From the NCBI GenBank assembly GCA_903923395.1, contig CAIXXM010000020.1, positions 1-56,536 of the forward strand: a DNA stretch of 56,536 bases, in the 5' to 3' direction. The DNA comes from an uncultured Acidobacteriia bacterium (lineage in GTDB: Bacteria > Acidobacteriota > Terriglobia > Bryobacterales > Bryobacteraceae). Position numbers and translations under genes: made by a program. This document shows positions 28,122 through 53,887 of this stretch, in pieces; position 1 is the stretch's first letter, and every line of letters begins with the position of its first letter. Below the pieces are notes generated by a model, which was not told the DNA's origin, made no database searches, and worked only from the letters and a program-made list of their open reading frames with translations.

Positions 28122-28279
28122 GGTGCCAAGCACCGCTTCACTCCTAAGTATTCGCCGGCAAAACGGACCTCGGGGCGGCGGCGAATGCTTGTTTGTGATG
28201 AGGCCGCCCCGGCCTTTGCCGGCTAGCTGGCGTGCCGAATTGAAACAGAATTTCCGCTGGTTCGCGGCACTGATGAAGT

Positions 28280-28849
28280 GTGTCGCAATATCTCCGGAAA
28301 CCACAACATCCCAGACTTCCCGAAGAGGCCTATTTCCTGACCTGGCGGCTTGCCGGATCTATGCCTATCTGCCGAATTGCGACAACTCCGGCCGATGTCC
28401 GTCCAAAGTTTGCTGCTATGGACCGGCTGCTGGATAGGCTTTCGACTGGTCCACGCTGGCTGGCGGGGGACGGGGTTGCCCAGGCGGTCATCGGGTGCCT
28501 CAAGCGGAGTGAACAGGCTGGATTCTGCGAATTGGGCGATTGGGTAATCATGCCGAATCACGTGCATTTGATCGTGCGGCCGCACGTCGAACTGCCGCGA
28601 TGGGTTTCCGGTTTGAAGCGCGAGAGTGCGGTCGAGGCGAATCGGGTATTGGATCGGATCGGAAGTTTCTGGGCGCACGGTTATCATGACCGGCTGATTC
28701 GGGACCGGGATGAGGAATTTCGGATCAGGCGGTATATAGATAACAACCCGGTGAAGGCGGGGTTGTGCAGTGATCCCGCGGATTGGCCCTACGGTTCGGC
28801 AAATGTGGTTCATGCGGGCACGCACGTCAGGATGACGTGCGAACGATAG
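28280..28849 (+). CDS. REP-associated tyrosine transposase (RAYT)
   Basis: A 189-residue single-domain Y1 HUH transposase of the TnpA-REP/RAYT family, enzymes related to IS200/IS605 transposases that nick and join REP hairpins and are thought to spread them. Seen: the family's opening PRLPEEAYFLTWRLAGSMP, the HUH pair H94-x-H96 in MPNHVHLIV, the catalytic tyrosine Y152 in RRYIDNNPVKAGL, and the typical DWPYGSA tail. It uses a GTG start (28280), in the right place for the family. The last nine codons (THVRMTCER) are written by the first REP palindrome itself. An array of the same palindrome follows immediately, the expected REPtron layout. Confidence 0.92.
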   Translation: MSQYLRKPQHPRLPEEAYFLTWRLAGSMPICRIATTPADVRPKFAAMDRLLDRLSTGPRWLAGDGVAQAVIGCLKRSEQAGFCELGDWVIMPNHVHLIVRPHVELPRWVSGLKRESAVEANRVLDRIGSFWAHGYHDRLIRDRDEEFRIRRYIDNNPVKAGLCSDPADWPYGSANVVHAGTHVRMTCER

Positions 28850-29613
28850 GCGACGGAGCAAGGGTTCATGCAGGGTTTCGGAATATAGGGGCACGCACGT
28901 CAGGATGACGTGCGAACGATAGGCGGAGGGGCAAAGGGGCGCATGCAGGGTTTCGGGGATAGAGGGGCGCGCAAGTCAGGATGACGTGTGAACGATAGGC
29001 GGAGGGGCAAAGGGGCTCATGCGGCGTTTCGGACGGGCGAACGATAGGCGGAAGAGAAGGAGCCTTGTTCGCCCGCCTTTCAGGCGGGCGTGTCGAAGGG
29101 AACTGGGGAGCGGCGGAGCAAGGGTGCATGCGGGATTTCGGGATATAGGGGCAAAGGGATTCAAGAGGGGTTTCGAGGATCCAGGGGCACGCACGTCAGG
29201 ATGACGTGCGAACGATAGGCGGAGGGGCAAAGGGGCTCATGCAGGGTTTCGGGGATATAGGGGCGCGCACGTCAGGATGACGTGCGAACGATAGGCGAAG
29301 GGGCAAAGGGGCTCATGCAGGGTTTCGGGATAGAGGGGCACGCACGTCAGGATGACGTGCGAACGATGGGCGACGGGGCAAGGGGGCTCATGCAGGGTTT
29401 CGGGATAGAGGGGCACGATAGGCGACGGAGCAAGGGCTCATGCGGCGTTTCGGGACATAGGGGCGCGCACGTCAGGATGACGTGCGAACGATGGGCGGAG
29501 GGGCAAAGGGGCTCATGCAGGGTTTCGGGGATAGAGGGGCAGGCATCGGCGAAGGCACAGGGGGCAAGCGACCGTTTCGGAATATGGACGCACGCACATC
29601 AGGATGACGTGCG
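28821..29613. repeat. Array of REP palindromes next to the RAYT gene
   Basis: Eight copies of a hairpin, stem CGCACGTCA / TGACGTGCG with a GGA loop: 28821-28841, 28894-28914, 28970-28990 (two changes), 29190-29210, 29266-29286, 29341-29361, 29466-29486 and 29593-29613 (one change). Each is followed by GAACGATAGGCG or close variants. All have the same orientation. They are embedded in a direct repeat of 73-76 bases with spacer text GGGGCAAAGGGGCTCATGCAGG..., and several units have lost the palindrome (around 29035 and 29414). A different palindrome, CGCCCGCCT-TTC-AGGCGGGCG, sits at 29070-29090. No real gene lies in 28850-29770; open frames here are the repeat read through. Confidence 0.92.
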
Positions 29614-29770
29614 AACAAAATCTTTTGCTAACCTGAGGTGGAAGGTGCTTGCGCAGGGTGCCTCCAGTCCGCGGAAAGGGCCGCGCCCACCTGCTGTTTT
29701 GAGGTCTTACGCCCATTGAAGACACTCTTTCGCCTGTCATGCGGACCAGGCTAACGAAGGAGACTGTCCA

Positions 29771-48733: not shown

Positions 48734-49909
48734 ATGTCATTTGCTTCCATACCTGAAGCCATCGAAGAAACCCGCGCCGGAAGGATGCTGGTGGTGGTGG
48801 ATGACGAAGACCGCGAGAATGAGGGCGATTTAACCCTCGCGGCAGAAAAAGTAACACCCGAAATTATCAACTTCATGGCCACGCACGGGCGTGGTCTGAT
48901 CTGTCTTACCCTGACCGAACAGCGTTGCGATGAATTGCATCTGCCGCTGATGTCGCCGAGCAACACGTCGAACTTCGGGACGGCATTTACGGAGTCGATT
49001 GACGCGAAGGAGGGGGTCACCACCGGCATTTCCGCCCTGGACCGCACGAAGACCATCCTGGCAGCGATTGACCCGAACACCAGGCCGTGGGATCTGGCGC
49101 GCCCCGGGCACATGTTTCCGCTGCGGGCCCGCGATGGCGGCGTGCTGGTGCGCGCGGGCCAGACGGAAGCATCGGTGGATCTCGCGAGGCTGGCTGGGCT
49201 GCATCCTTCCGGCATCATCTGCGAAATCATGAATGAGGACGGCACCATGTCCCGCGTGCCGCAACTCATCGAGTTCTGCAAGAAGCATGACCTCAAGATG
49301 ATCTCCGTGGCACAGCTCATCCGTTACCGTTTGAGCAATGAACACTGCGTGCACCGCCGCGGCACGGGAACCGTCCAGACCGAATTCGGCGAGTTTCAGG
49401 CTATCCATTACTCGAGCGACCTCAGCCCGGAGCGGCATACCGTGCTGGTCCGGGGCGATGTTTCGAACAAGAGCCGTGTGCTGGTGCGGATGCATTCCCA
49501 CTGCGCGTACGGCAATCTTTTCGGTTCCACAGCGTGTGATTGCGGACCGCTGGTAAACCAATCGCTGCGGCGTATTGCGCAAGAAGGCGCGGGCGTGCTG
49601 GTCTACCTGCACCAGACTGCGGGCGGCCTGCGGATTGAGAATGGCCAGATCATCGCGCACAGCCCGAAGAACCACCGGGCGCCGAATCAGAATGAGGTGG
49701 GCATTGGCGCGCAGATCCTGCGGGATCTGGGTCTCACGACGATCCGTTTGCTGACGAATAATCCGAAGAAGATCGGCGCGCTCGAAGGGTTCGGGATACA
49801 GATTGTGGAGCAGGTGGCGGTGGGGTGTTCGTGCGCCATTCTGGCGCGCGTTTCCGGGGTACAGAAGCACGTACGTCAGTTAACACATGCGCGAATCCGT
49901 CTTTTCTGA
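48734..49909 (+). CDS. ribB: RibB fused to a degenerate RibA-like domain (RibBX-like)
   Basis: Riboflavin pathway protein, 391 residues. The N-terminal 3,4-dihydroxy-2-butanone-4-phosphate synthase domain is intact ([11 protein letters not shown] at 23-33; [48 protein letters not shown]). The C-terminal GTP cyclohydrolase II-like domain keeps the zinc cysteines C257, C268 and C270 and the TNNP-x-KI loop, but the active-site RQEGRGIGL segment is replaced by HQTAGGLRI (293-301), so cyclohydrolase activity is doubtful. This matches the described RibBX architecture, where the second domain lacks RibA activity. ATG at 48734 follows AGGAA; an in-frame ATG at 48707 is the alternative. Divergent from the phosphatase gene. 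Confidence 0.88.
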
Positions 49910-49956
49910 CCAGGCCGGCTTTTCATTTCTCTGGCCACGTTATACGCTGGCTGCAA

Positions 49957-51195
49957 ATGAATCGCCGCACATTTTTCCAGAGCCTCGCCGGAGTCGCCGC
50001 CGGAGCCGCTGCCGTTCCGCTGTTGACGCGGGCCGCAATGCCCAAGATGAAGATCACGCGGGTCCGCATGTATGCGCCGCCCAATCCGAATCCACTGTTC
50101 AATCAAAGCGACATGGTGGTTACCGTTGAAACCGACGCCGGAATCACGGGAATTGGCGAAGGCGGGTCGCCGGATACCGTTTCGCAATCGGCCGGGCGGT
50201 TGATCGGGCGCGACCCGCAATATATCGAAAAGCTCTGGCAGGACATGCAGCGGGCCTTCTTCTATCCGCCGGGGCGGGAGAAGACGCATGGCATCGGCGC
50301 GCTGGATCTGGCACTGTGGGATATCAAAGGCAAGGCGCTGAAGCTGCCGGTGCATCAGATCCTGGGCGGCATGGCGCGCAACCACGTCGAGTGCTACAAC
50401 ACCGCGGGAAGCATTCCCGGTGTGCAGCCTGGCATGAGCATCAAAGAGCGGGCGCAGTTGACCATCGCTGCCGGTTACCGGGCGTTTCGCTTCGGTGCCG
50501 CCGATGCTCCCGCCAACGGACTGTTCAATACCCATATACAGCTGAATGTGCTGCGGGACCAGTGCGCGCAGGCACGGGAAGGGGTGGGTCCGAACGGGGA
50601 TTGGTGCGTGGATTTCCACCAGCGCTTTGATCTCTCCGAAGCCGTGCGGGGCTGCGATCTGATCCGCGAGTTCAACCCCATGTTTGTGGAAGACCCGGTT
50701 CGCGAAGAGGCGTTCAAGGAGGATATTCCGATTCTGCGCCGCACCGCGCGTGTGCCGATCGCGGCAGGGGAAGAGTGGGGCAACCGGTGGGATTTCAATA
50801 AACTCATCGAAGCGCATGACATCGATTACGTCCGCGCCACGTTGCCGAACACGGGCGGGATTACGGAAATGATGAAGATCGCCGCCATCTGCGAGACGCA
50901 TTTTGTGGGGATTGTGCCGCACTTTACGGGTCCCATTGCGACGGCGGCACTGGTGAACTCGCTGGGCACGTTTCCAGGGCCGCTGCTCATGGAATATAAC
51001 TTCCAGGGCAAGACGTTCGCGCACCTGCCGGTTTGCCTGGATTTCAAGGATGGGAAATTGTTTGCAAATGAGCGACCGGGGTTGGGGGTGGAGTTCGATC
51101 CCAAGCCGTGCAAGTTGTTGGGGGAAGTGACGCAGCCAGTGACGGCGCGCGCGCAAACGTATTTCCGGCCGGATGGGTCGATTACGAACTGGTAG
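49957..51195 (+). CDS. Enolase-superfamily (mandelate racemase-like) protein, Tat-exported
   Basis: A 412-residue protein of the mandelate racemase/muconate lactonizing group, most like sugar-acid dehydratases. A twin-arginine signal (MNRRTFFQSLAGVAAGAAAVPLL) precedes the capping domain. Metal-binding acids are visible as D219 in VDFHQRFD, E245 in FVEDPV and E272 in AAGEEWGNRWD; H221 of the D-x-H motif and H322 (VPHFTGPI) would be catalytic. The lysine pair (K-x-K) found in racemases is replaced by AFRFG around 176-180, as expected for dehydratases using D-x-H. Export of a sugar-acid dehydratase is unusual but matches the mannonate-dehydratase-like gene at 15157. It is the last gene before the accessory region. 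Confidence 0.85.
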   Translation: MNRRTFFQSLAGVAAGAAAVPLLTRAAMPKMKITRVRMYAPPNPNPLFNQSDMVVTVETDAGITGIGEGGSPDTVSQSAGRLIGRDPQYIEKLWQDMQRAFFYPPGREKTHGIGALDLALWDIKGKALKLPVHQILGGMARNHVECYNTAGSIPGVQPGMSIKERAQLTIAAGYRAFRFGAADAPANGLFNTHIQLNVLRDQCAQAREGVGPNGDWCVDFHQRFDLSEAVRGCDLIREFNPMFVEDPVREEAFKEDIPILRRTARVPIAAGEEWGNRWDFNKLIEAHDIDYVRATLPNTGGITEMMKIAAICETHFVGIVPHFTGPIATAALVNSLGTFPGPLLMEYNFQGKTFAHLPVCLDFKDGKLFANERPGLGVEFDPKPCKLLGEVTQPVTARAQTYFRPDGSITNW

Positions 51196-51656
51196 CGCAC
51201 AGGCGCAAGGGCCGCGCCCGCAAACTCGATCAGCAACCGCAGCGTTCAGGCGGCCCGCAGTCGTCCGTTTTGCGCGAGTTCCTCGTAAGCGCAAAGGGTG
51301 CGGTGCGCGCCATCAGAAGTTGAGAAACAGCGTCGCACCGCACTCCGTTTTGCGCGTAATCCTCAGTAGCGCACGAGCCGCAGTTCGCGTCGTCAATCGG
51401 GTCGGATCAAGGAACCCGATGAGCTCAACGCGGACGGCGAGTCCGTTGTGCGGCGGTTCCTCAGAAGCCGCACAGGCGCGAGGGCCGTGCCCGCAACATC
51501 GATCAGTAACCACAGCGTTCCGGCGGCCCGAAGGCGTCCGTTGTGCGGCGGTTGCTCAGAAGCCGCACAGGCCACCGTTCGCGGCGTCAATCGAATCAAG
51601 GAACCCGATGAGCTCAACGCGGACGGCGAGTCCGTTGTGCGGCGGTTCCTCAGAAG
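51193..51656. repeat. Array of hairpin repeats with about 95-base period
   Basis: Five hairpin positions, each after TCCGTT: 51269-51295 (stem TTTGCGC/GCGCAAA), 51351-51373 (TGCGC/GCGCA), 51447-51474 and 51542-51569 (both TGTGCGGC/GCCGCACA), and 51636-51656, whose right arm is missing. Loops share a TTCCTCAGAA-like sequence. Spacing is 82, 96, 95 and 94 bases. The sequences between are mostly of two related kinds that alternate. A 62-base exact repeat occurs at 51406-51467 and 51595-51656. The region 51196-51739 has no gene I can support. Confidence 0.85.
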
Positions 51657-51739: not shown

Positions 51740-51990
51740 TCAAGCAACTGGTTTTCCAAATGGCCGCATACCCAGCTTGAGTACTGTCTTCGGCAAGGAA
51801 TCCGTGCCGCAGAGAATGAAAGAACCGAAGTCTTTATACCAGTCACCGGAAGGCGCGACCGGGTTCGTTTCACCTACTCTTGTAGAGACAGCAAGTCGTC
51901 GAGCGAAATATCCCGCTCATCCACTCTTTGGAGAAGGTGCTGCCAAACGCTTCTTGGGAGATTAGCAAACTGAATCTTCGGCAATCGCAT
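51740..51990 (-). pseudogene. Frameshifted partner of the RHH antitoxin
   Basis: The frame starts at 51990 (MRLPKIQFANLPRSVWQHLL QRVDERDISLDDLLSLQE) and stops at 51874-51876. The continuation NPVAPSGDWYKDFGSFILCG TDSLPKTVLKLGMRPFGKPV is in a different frame and ends at a TGA at 51740. One missing base near 51873-51877 explains both halves and would restore an 84-codon gene. It overlaps the preceding antitoxin by 29 bp, the layout of a two-gene toxin-antitoxin operon; the intact family is a small unnamed protein of roughly 85 residues that I know only as a neighbour of such RHH genes. The surviving 38-residue product is probably inert. Confidence 0.68.
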
Positions 51991-52273
51991 CTCTCCCGAA
52001 GATGGCAGAAATCAGGTCCCTGCCTGCTGCGTTCTTCGCAGCCGGATCACTTTCAGAAAGAAACCGCCCGTGAGCTGACTTCAGTTGCTCTTTTGCTTCG
52101 AGCTCGGCCCGAACGCCACGCTCTGCAAAGACCACCAGCGCGCGGCTCATCGTGAGGTGTTGCTCCCTGGCTGCGCGGCGCAATTCTGGCAACAATGCCG
52201 CCGGGATTGTCACGCTCTGCCGGAGCGACCCTGCGGATGCCTTCTTGTTCGCCGCCACATTTCGGGTTGCCAT
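51962..52273 (-). CDS. Ribbon-helix-helix protein, antitoxin-like
   Basis: A 103-residue protein. A basic N-terminal tail (MATRNVAANKKASAGS) leads into a ribbon-helix-helix motif (LRQSVTIPAALLPELRRAAREQHLTMSRALVVFAERGVR) and an acidic helical tail (AELEAKEQLKSAHGRFLSES). The form is that of a CopG/MetJ-type antitoxin or small repressor. The ATG at 52273 is chosen because upstream in-frame codons lie in the unrelated leader. It overlaps its downstream partner, which is frameshifted, and follows the terminase-like genes on the same strand with a 61-bp gap. Alternative: a stand-alone repressor. Confidence 0.75.
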   Translation of the reverse strand: MATRNVAANKKASAGSLRQSVTIPAALLPELRRAAREQHLTMSRALVVFAERGVRAELEAKEQLKSAHGRFLSESDPAAKNAAGRDLISAIFGRDAIAEDSVC

Positions 52274-52334
52274 ATATAGAGAATAACAGCGAAACGGCGC
52301 AACTTCCCCCTCCACACCTCACCCCCTCCACCCC

Positions 52335-53138
52335 TCAAAACGGCGGCCGGTTCCCCTCTCCCGTCACCGTCTCCTCCAGCAGCGGCTCTTCGAAAATCCC
52401 GTTCTCCGCCGACCCGAACTGGCACTCATACTCCTGCGCATACTTCTCCGGCGTCTTGTCCTCCCGCTCCTTCGCCAGAAACTCCTCACTCAGCCGCGGA
52501 CAATCGGACGCCTTCACCTGCTGCTTCTTCCACCGGTTCCCCGCCGAAACGTGCGCTTTGTAATAGAACCCATACCTCGGCCCCGAAGTCGAAAGCAGCC
52601 ACGTATTCCCGTTCTTCACCACCAGCGCCGGCCGCACAATTTGATACGCCTCGTCATTCTTGAAGTGCGCCGCCTCATCCACAATCAGCAGACTCGCCGT
52701 GAAACACCGTATGTTCTTCGGCATCTCCGGCAACCCGATAATCCGCGACCCGTTCGGCAGCACCACCGAACAGCTCCGCCTCGGATCCCTCGGCAGCTTC
52801 ACCCCATACGCCAGCCGCTCCGCAAATTCGCGCGCGATCGCCACCAAATTCATGCTCTGGCTCTCCGTCGGAGCCAGCACCAGCGCCGTCATCCCCGGCT
52901 CCAGCCAGCCCCGCGCCACCGCCATCGCTGCCGTCGCCGTCGATTTCCCCCACTGCCGCGTGCAGTTCAACACCACATCATCCTTCGCCCACCCGAGCAG
53001 CTCCCTCTGCGGCTCATCCGGTTCAAACCCCATCCGCGCGATCAACTCCCAGTAATCCTCCGCCGGAGCCTCCGCGCGTGCCACCTCTTCGTTGGCTGGA
53101 ATGTCCTGGATATGTATCCCACACCGCTTCGCCCACAT
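52335..53138 (-). CDS. Terminase-like ATPase domain protein
   Basis: A 267-residue protein corresponding to the ATPase half of phage large terminase (TerL): Walker A CTRQWGKST at 59-67, Walker B LLIVDEAAH at 150-158, coupling motif LLSTSGP at 181-187. Terminases package phage DNA into proheads. The chain ends soon after these motifs, so the RNase H-like nuclease half is absent; it is encoded by the gene just upstream, 13 bp away. The usual order in a single TerL is ATPase then nuclease, so the two halves are split and permuted. ATG at 53138 is preferred over a longer frame overlapping the nuclease gene. The coding strand is notably G-rich at codon third positions. Confidence 0.78.
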   Translation of the reverse strand: MWAKRCGIHIQDIPANEEVARAEAPAEDYWELIARMGFEPDEPQRELLGWAKDDVVLNCTRQWGKSTATAAMAVARGWLEPGMTALVLAPTESQSMNLVAIAREFAERLAYGVKLPRDPRRSCSVVLPNGSRIIGLPEMPKNIRCFTASLLIVDEAAHFKNDEAYQIVRPALVVKNGNTWLLSTSGPRYGFYYKAHVSAGNRWKKQQVKASDCPRLSEEFLAKEREDKTPEKYAQEYECQFGSAENGIFEEPLLEETVTGEGNRPPF

Positions 53139-53151
53139 AACTGGACCCACC

Positions 53152-53787
53152 CTACAGCCACGGCACCCGGACGTCGCCCGGATACGACTGCAGCAGCGCC
53201 CACTGCGCCAGTGCCGCCGCGAACGCAAGATCATCATGTCCGCTGCCTTTGCCGCTGGCTGTCAAATAGCCGTTGGGCGTGCGTATCTCTTCCACGCACC
53301 GCAGTTCATGCATCAGTTCTTCAAAGCCCGGCATGTCTTTCCGGATCACGGTGCGCCCCTGTTCCATCCCGGCCCGCAGCATGTAGAACAACTGGCTCTT
53401 GGTTGCGGAGTGGTACGAGGCTCCCTTCCGGCCGGGCAGACTCCCGGTGTCCCCGTGTCCGCCGGTGATCATCACGGGCCACACCCGGCCCTTCAGCCCG
53501 ACGGCGTCCATGATCTCCAGCACGGCTTCGCCAACGCCCGTGGCATCCACGGCGCAGCGCACGCCCCAGCCCCGGCTCTCCGCCACCCGCCACCGCCGCG
53601 CGAGATCTTTGGCAATATCGGTGTACCGGGTCCCGAGAGGGTACCGCTCCGCCAGAATAAACTCCATGCGCGGCGCCGTCGGGAACCGGACCTGCACCGG
53701 GTCCCAGGCCTTGACCACCGTCCGCCGAAACCCCGCCACCAGCGCCGTATAATCCCGTCGTTTTCCTAAATCCAAACCCAAAAACAT
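53152..53787 (-). CDS. Terminase-like RNase H-fold nuclease domain protein
   Basis: A 211-residue protein matching the nuclease half of large terminases, which cuts DNA with an RNase H-like fold and two metals. The catalytic acids are visible at the family positions: D6 in FLGLDLGKRRDYTAL, D81 in AVDATGVGEAVLE and D185/D186 in GSGHDDLAFAAALA. Start at the ATG at 53787 is supported by GGAG six bases upstream; in-frame ATGs at 53799 and 53829 would extend it. The neighbouring downstream gene carries the ATPase half. No portal, capsid or protease gene lies near. If not phage-derived, both could belong to a plasmid, gene-transfer-agent or defence-related system. Confidence 0.72.
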   Translation of the reverse strand: MFLGLDLGKRRDYTALVAGFRRTVVKAWDPVQVRFPTAPRMEFILAERYPLGTRYTDIAKDLARRWRVAESRGWGVRCAVDATGVGEAVLEIMDAVGLKGRVWPVMITGGHGDTGSLPGRKGASYHSATKSQLFYMLRAGMEQGRTVIRKDMPGFEELMHELRCVEEIRTPNGYLTASGKGSGHDDLAFAAALAQWALLQSYPGDVRVPWL

Positions 53788-53887
53788 CTGAGTCTCCATG
53801 GCCATGGCATACCACGGCCCAGAAAGCAATAATGTGGAAGTGCTTGATTCGAAAAGAAAAAAGTGCTGTGATCATTCGCGGCTGTGG

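Follow-up and report, generated by a model that had tools for sequence, protein, structure and literature searches.

A dispersed family of small folded repeats in the Bryobacteraceae as candidate single-strand mobile elements

What is repeated behind a gene of the enolase/mandelate racemase superfamily in an uncultured Acidobacteriia bacterium, and how did the repeats come to lie there? The window, by which we mean the whole 56,536-nt stretch of DNA analysed, was described in an earlier note as carrying five hairpins, one every 82-96 bases after a constant TCCGTT, with TTCCTCAGAA as their loop. TCCGTT does occur at five sites (51264, 51344, 51442, 51537 and 51631), but the spacings are 80, 98, 95 and 94 and the hairpins number four. 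The quoted stems TTTGCGC/GCGCAAA and TGCGC/GCGCA are found, as is TGTGCGGC/GCCGCACA twice, but the fifth site has TGTGCGGC without a downstream partner. More fundamentally, the hairpin around TTCCTCAGAA is not the repeat unit. It straddles a unit junction, where at four of the five sites one unit's 3′ end pairs with the start of the unit after it, and the supposed loop consists of one unit's 3′ tail followed by its neighbor's 5′ flank. Isolated copies elsewhere in the same genome keep the unit intact and lack the junction. The array is better read as five head-to-tail units of 80-98 nt each, spanning 51196-51656, with interior types in the order A-B-C-A-C, the first beginning directly after a stop codon, TAG (51193-51195). 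The features are listed below with their matches to two models, covariance model R1 and model R2, the latter built from 51 diverse units.

49825-51195, + strand: host gene, enolase/mandelate racemase superfamily (Pfam); the array starts after its stop codon.
51196-51289, + strand: unit 1, subfamily A interior; R1 and R2 matches.
51290-51369, + strand: unit 2, of subfamily B, with GTGCGGTGCG/CGCACCGCAC as its inner stem; R1 and R2 matches; single-stranded DNA fold z of -5.51.
51370-51467, + strand: unit 3, subfamily C, 5′ end decayed; R1 match, absent from the R2 matches.
51468-51562, + strand: unit 4, subfamily A; R1 match, absent from the R2 matches.
51563-51656, + strand: unit 5, subfamily C, the last of the array; R1 and R2 matches; no junction hairpin 3′ of it.
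28140-28229, - strand: single subfamily D unit, GCCGGCAAAGG...TCCGTTTTGCCGGC GAATACTTAGGAG; R1 match, and R2 match at 28135-28224.

Fourteen other genus genomes match the host gene, and in 13 of them the best match stops at, or at most 5 bases from, the stop codon, which would fit insertion of the array at this point, although conservation of the gene alone would look alike. Pieces of a terminase large subunit (Pfam, PHROGs; 52335-53829, - strand) adjoin the array together with a weak ribbon-helix-helix ORF at 51962-52315, and this region is perhaps a phage remnant.

The unit is built as follows. It starts after RAG or TAG, the stem P1 (GCGCAMA...TKTGCGC) encloses a variable hairpin, and the tail GTTCCTCARAAG comes last. 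This tail is complementary to the unit's own apical loop, GAGGAAC, and the two likely form a pseudoknot. Inside P1 lies GG, closed by CCGT so that GT bulges out. A local hairpin comes next (GCCGC..GCGGC, GGTGC..GCACC or GGCGC..GCGCC, among its variants), then often CCAA, the loop, P1′ and the tail. Units generally measure ~80-110 nt with one hairpin each; in other species the letters differ and the plan is similar, and the subfamilies differ from species to species. In the array itself, the 3′ arm of unit 1, TTTGCGC, has one mismatch to that unit's own 5′ arm, and the tail of unit 4, GGTTGCT, pairs by eye with its own loop, AGTAACC, through one G-T. Short forms of 50-60 nt, such as GCGCACAGGCGGCC...GGCCGCCGTTGTGCGC, occur in other members of the genus (L111, L113, L122 and L128), with the same ends and little or no loop.

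The earlier note suspected that the folded form is what is selected. This appears to be so, as three pairings, P1, the inner hairpin and loop with tail, exceed shuffles in tests that ignore kinship. We used 202 units chosen by an exact CCGTT[GT]TG and a near-exact tail, criteria that leave the inner hairpin and the loop free to vary. That CCGTT and the GT bulge do not vary in alignment A3 therefore follows from the selection and is no finding; by eye, several copies in genomes G008, G014, G017 and G018 lack CCGTT. For P1, an arm score of at least 7 is reached by 186 of the 202 units, chosen by their 3′ side alone, against 334 of 1010 shuffled arms. A3 comprises 51 rows, taken from 53 units that represent 68 clusters. 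Its P1 column pair 8-87 reads A-U in 27 rows and C-G in the other 24; that the pair is never broken is a biased result, as rows needed a P1 score of at least 8. Alignment A1 (37 used of 52 extracted units, one chance match of 53 having been removed beforehand) gives C-G 29, A-U 7 and one other, which is unit 1 of the array; these counts are likewise biased, as the script that built R1 demanded at least 7 of 9 stem pairs.

Standard pairs make up 77.0% of the inner hairpin, with a covariation of 0.283; shuffles give 66.4% and 0.129 (0 of 500 reach the observed values), and sliding gives at most 59.6% and 0.159. A column covariation scan is noisy mid-alignment, and the two candidates for the true inner fold, a local hairpin at columns 11-15/22-26 and a stem of longer range, share bases. 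The longest stretch of perfect complementarity between loop and tail averages 6.49 nt, compared with 4.26 nt for shuffled tails, and reaches at least 8 nt in 60 of 202 units and in 2 of 1010 shuffled tails. Among 108 distinct units (121 of the 202 taken, 108 after merging duplicates), 61 have a complementary base beside GTTCC/GGAAC against a shuffle expectation of 42.0 (0 of 2000 as high), with T-T accounting for 27; the second flanking base shows no excess in the same 108 units, at 77 against 78.1. When tails were permuted among 52 representatives, the own-tail mean was reached in 1 of 5000 permutations, although the own tail exceeds the unit's own swapped mean in just 30 of the 52. By eye, loop and tail still pair where their letters have been replaced wholesale, as in subfamily D (ATTCGCCG/CGGCGAAT) and subfamily A (AACCGC/GCGGTT).

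Folding energy by itself is poor support for the five array copies: as single-stranded DNA, units 1-5 have z values of 0.10, -5.51, -0.69, -0.88 and -1.98 on the + strand and 0.32, -6.03, -1.49, -1.52 and -1.54 on the - strand. Among 186 distinct units of 196 passing, from the 202, RNA energy is lower on the + strand in 105 and on the - strand in 61, a modest strand preference.

An array both unique and decayed was part of what the earlier note had said would count against its reading; the family proves instead to be dispersed. R1 has 111 matches at E ≤ 0.01 in the bacterium's own 6.15-Mb genome, all five array units included (of 4254 candidates, 150 were scored, and some of the matches are short). 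With an exact two-ended pattern the genome gives 22 matches, against 0 for the same pattern read backward, and blastn with the array as query finds 46, the array itself counted. Across the genus, R1 matches 12 of 19 genomes, the bacterium's own included; the other 11 hold 35, 34, 32, 16, 9, 7, 4, 2, 1, 1 and 1 matches, the weakest possibly by chance, and seven of the 18 other genomes hold none. R2, searched with stricter filters and at most 26 (order) or 16 (phylum) candidates scored per genome, matches at least 54 of 150 genomes of the order, all 54 labeled as the window's own family, and 1 of 247 in a phylum sample, namely the genome that we started from. A scan of named genomes with a pattern that fixes tail letters, and so limits tail variation, returned 110 stretches, of which 79 of 80 listed carry acidobacterial names (Bryobacteraceae, Bryobacterales, Solibacter and others) and one is named Nevskia soli, perhaps mislabeled. 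Viral contigs searched with one exact pattern and plasmids searched with one blastn query gave no match. The units are thus one large family in the Bryobacteraceae (Acidobacteriota), real, widespread and structurally conserved. As had been supposed, no named family fits: Rfam has no match in the window at gathering score and one chance microRNA match at E ≤ 5 on eight loci, and a literature search, with most subscription papers outside its scope, turned up no description of the family. In the bacterium's own assembly, contigs C58, C85, C137 and C161 start, and C7 ends, within ~45 nt of a unit, a sign that draft assemblies probably break at the repeats.

Mobility was among the options that the earlier note had listed, and filled and empty sites, together with the dispersed copies, bear it out. 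Contig C58 holds two paralogous segments, with flanks identical at 91/95 and 457/480 positions, each of which has a unit where the other is empty. The empty sites read CCAAAG|AACAGG and GAAG|GTCGCC, and in the filled ones the unit sits directly behind RAG and ahead of the following base, with no target duplication in these pairs beyond 2-3 ambiguous letters. In genome G004 a unit occupies one fixed position within another dispersed repeat, CTGAGCCGCGACCGNRAGGGAG, at 9 distinct sites (L105, L200-L210, L251, L252, L276 and L279). Thirteen rows have the unit (four seen twice; 4 of the 9 distinct places continue with CGGT after it) and 16 are without it (some seen twice; 8 continue with CGG), all at non-orthologous places, and the composite may have spread as a whole. 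Here the left GAG and the right AAG argue against a 3-nt duplication. More broadly, RAG stands at the left end of 105 and the right end of 135 of 156 scoreable units (from 186), counting against it 17 that read AGGG and are probably out of register. Subfamily D is mostly preceded by CTA and ends in GGAG, and an empty site was not found for it. Insertion 3′ of a short motif, RAG, without target duplication is the behavior of IS200/IS605-type elements. It also explains the arrays, for a unit ends in RAAG, each copy therefore offers a landing site to the next, and mixed subfamilies come to lie head to tail.

Of 196 distinct copies, 24 lie inside ORFs predicted with a simple codon score, for which the window served as training set, and their orientations split 12/12. 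Divergent genes flank 22 copies, convergent genes 27 and co-directional genes 66, and 57 have a gene on one side only. Relative to co-directional genes there is no orientation preference (32 same, 34 opposite), as expected if movement occurs at the DNA level. At L268, three 93-nt units lie in frame within a 370-aa ORF that has no Pfam match; in-frame insertion is a habit of Rickettsia palindromic elements. At L297, from 7608, an opposite-strand array starts where a 240-aa ORF (PP2C-like by eye) finishes, and the tail sequence of the array supplies the TGA stop.

We favor, at a probability of roughly 0.55, the reading that the array comprises five copies of a small non-autonomous mobile element that would be moved in trans by an HUH-type enzyme by way of folded single-stranded DNA, the most likely route. 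Sequence comparison documents the unit, its ends, its dispersal, insertion at RAG without duplication, pairings in excess of shuffles and arrays of mixed subfamilies, the filled and empty sites being paralogous and repeat sites, with one genome per species compared. We infer that a mover exists, and HUH chemistry is favored because a single-strand fold, the lack of duplication and a short 5′ target occur together. In such a scheme, the strand reading AAGCGC...CTCARAAG would fold as single-stranded DNA into a pseudoknotted hairpin. A nuclease or transposase acting in trans, most likely of HUH type, would recognize the P1 hairpin, cut after the 3′ RAAG and join the unit 3′ of a chromosomal RAG. 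A bolder version, possible but doubtful, is that the units represent a new class of non-autonomous single-strand element, in which a pseudoknot of the internal guide loop GAGGAAC with the unit's own 3′ tail would set the cut at the terminal RAAG, with an undescribed enzyme as mover, and joint change of loop and tail would let subfamilies diversify.

Candidate movers were sought around the units. TnpB with its omega-RNA was set aside, with PF07282 matching nothing in the bacterium's own genome and being found in 1 of 19 genus genomes. Class 3-like TnpA matches 4 of 19 genus genomes, as fragments in G007 and G004, and among the four unit-richest genus genomes appears just in G004, as fragments; with 0 R1 matches at 8 class 3-like loci, some themselves fragments, it too was rejected. 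Clustering of 4519 ORFs near units gave none that is transposase-like by eye among the 17 largest clusters, and no gene-bearing version was seen in 110 loci. For a long gene-bearing form, 21 orphan 3′ ends and 94 loosely defined 5′ ends yielded three loose pairs, which by eye did not convince. On several contigs, units paired at a distance of 1.5-1.9 kb resembled composite elements, a reading that was rejected, as the ORFs of four such loci include no transposase by eye.

The foremost rival, which we hold to be unlikely, is that the units are REP/BIME elements moved by the RAYT genes of these genomes. They are indeed high-copy, mostly intergenic hairpins, and the window's subfamily D unit lies ~50 nt upstream of a RAYT-like Y1 transposase ORF (28280-28849, + strand, PF01797). 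Y1 transposases have 3 matches in the bacterium's own genome and occur in 14 of 19 genus genomes and 104 of 150 order genomes. Their association with units across the order is weak (both 43, unit alone 11, Y1 alone 61, neither 35; 43/54 against 61/96, Fisher p 0.044, uncorrected for kinship), and 11 of the 54 unit-bearing genomes have no Y1 match; within the genus the two are unrelated (9, 3, 5 and 2 in the same order; p = 1). The link to RAYT that had been proposed weakens further at the loci themselves, where a unit is present at 2 of 50 overall, some being the same gene and some ending at a contig end: R1 matches at 2 of 30, and R2 at the same 2 of 39, with no R2 match at the 20 new loci among these, which come from unit-bearing genomes of the family (0/20). 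RAYT/Y1 is thus unsupported as a linked mover. The foot also differs, with GTAG at 1 and GTGG at 0 of 156 units (though window units 1 and 3 follow GTAG), as does the length of ~80-110 nt. Moreover, the window's RAYT-like ORF precedes an array of its own, in which a different hairpin repeat, GCACGTCAGGATGACGTGC, occurs about eight times, a layout (28280-29636) that is REPtron-like.

Quite unlikely, in our estimation, is a structured pseudoknot RNA with a cellular function and genome copying as its by-product. Loop-tail pairing above shuffles and a strand that folds slightly better speak for it; the neutral orientation to neighboring genes, the 24 copies within ORFs, subfamilies that vary between species, patchy presence in 12 of 19 genus genomes and the lack of an Rfam match all speak against. 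We judge as similarly improbable that another HUH enzyme (Y2, of an IS91/Helitron-like rolling circle) or reverse transcription of a folded RNA does the moving, for which the lack of target duplication, the short target and the tandem arrays could also be cited; IS91, which inserts beside a fixed tetranucleotide, offers a lead here. Classical MITEs of a DDE transposase would share inverted ends, a length of ~100 nt and dispersal, but are very improbable given the two filled and empty pairs without duplication beyond ambiguous letters, the unequal GAG and AAG in G004 and the pairing of loop with tail.

Small folded repeats shape bacterial genomes, and beyond REP/RAYT pairs few of their movers are known. 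In the present case a single architecture persists across a bacterial family although its letters are mostly replaced. Its ends are defined, empty sites exist, and loop and tail follow a rule, so that what moves an orphan palindromic element can be tested directly.

The family resembles known REP repeats but is distinct from them. The REP/BIME elements of RAYT (TnpA-REP) are described, in the available portions of the sources, as clustered, high-copy, mostly intergenic hairpins thought to move as single-stranded DNA (PMC8266576; PMC3733652). The units are likewise clustered, high in copy and mostly intergenic, but measure ~80-110 nt, pair loop with tail and have a RAG foot instead of GTAG. The requirement of Escherichia coli TnpA-REP for the REP bulge and GTAG, given in the accessible part of PMC8266576, may be relevant to the units as an analogy only. 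Of the GTAG and CGTC repeats covered in the available text of PMC3733652, neither tag fits. Closer in phylum are the ~600 atypical high-copy structures of Solibacter usitatus, which carry a CnGA foot and lie beside class 3 TnpA-Y1 genes according to the portion available of PMC6006769; the units share phylum, copy number and atypical structure, but CnGA is the foot of 0 of 156, and the eight class 3-like loci hold no unit. Rickettsia palindromic elements and CGTC repeats are palindromic, with a dedicated transposase not known, as far as the accessible part of PMC3733652 extends. The units share both traits, along with one case of in-frame units (L268), but end in RAG rather than CGTC, pair loop with tail and run to ~80-110 nt. 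Finally, although the units have one hairpin each, with no gene-bearing version seen and TnpB unmatched in 18 of 19 genus genomes, they have in common with IS200/IS605 ends and their non-autonomous derivatives the absence of target duplication, a short 5′ target and folded ends.
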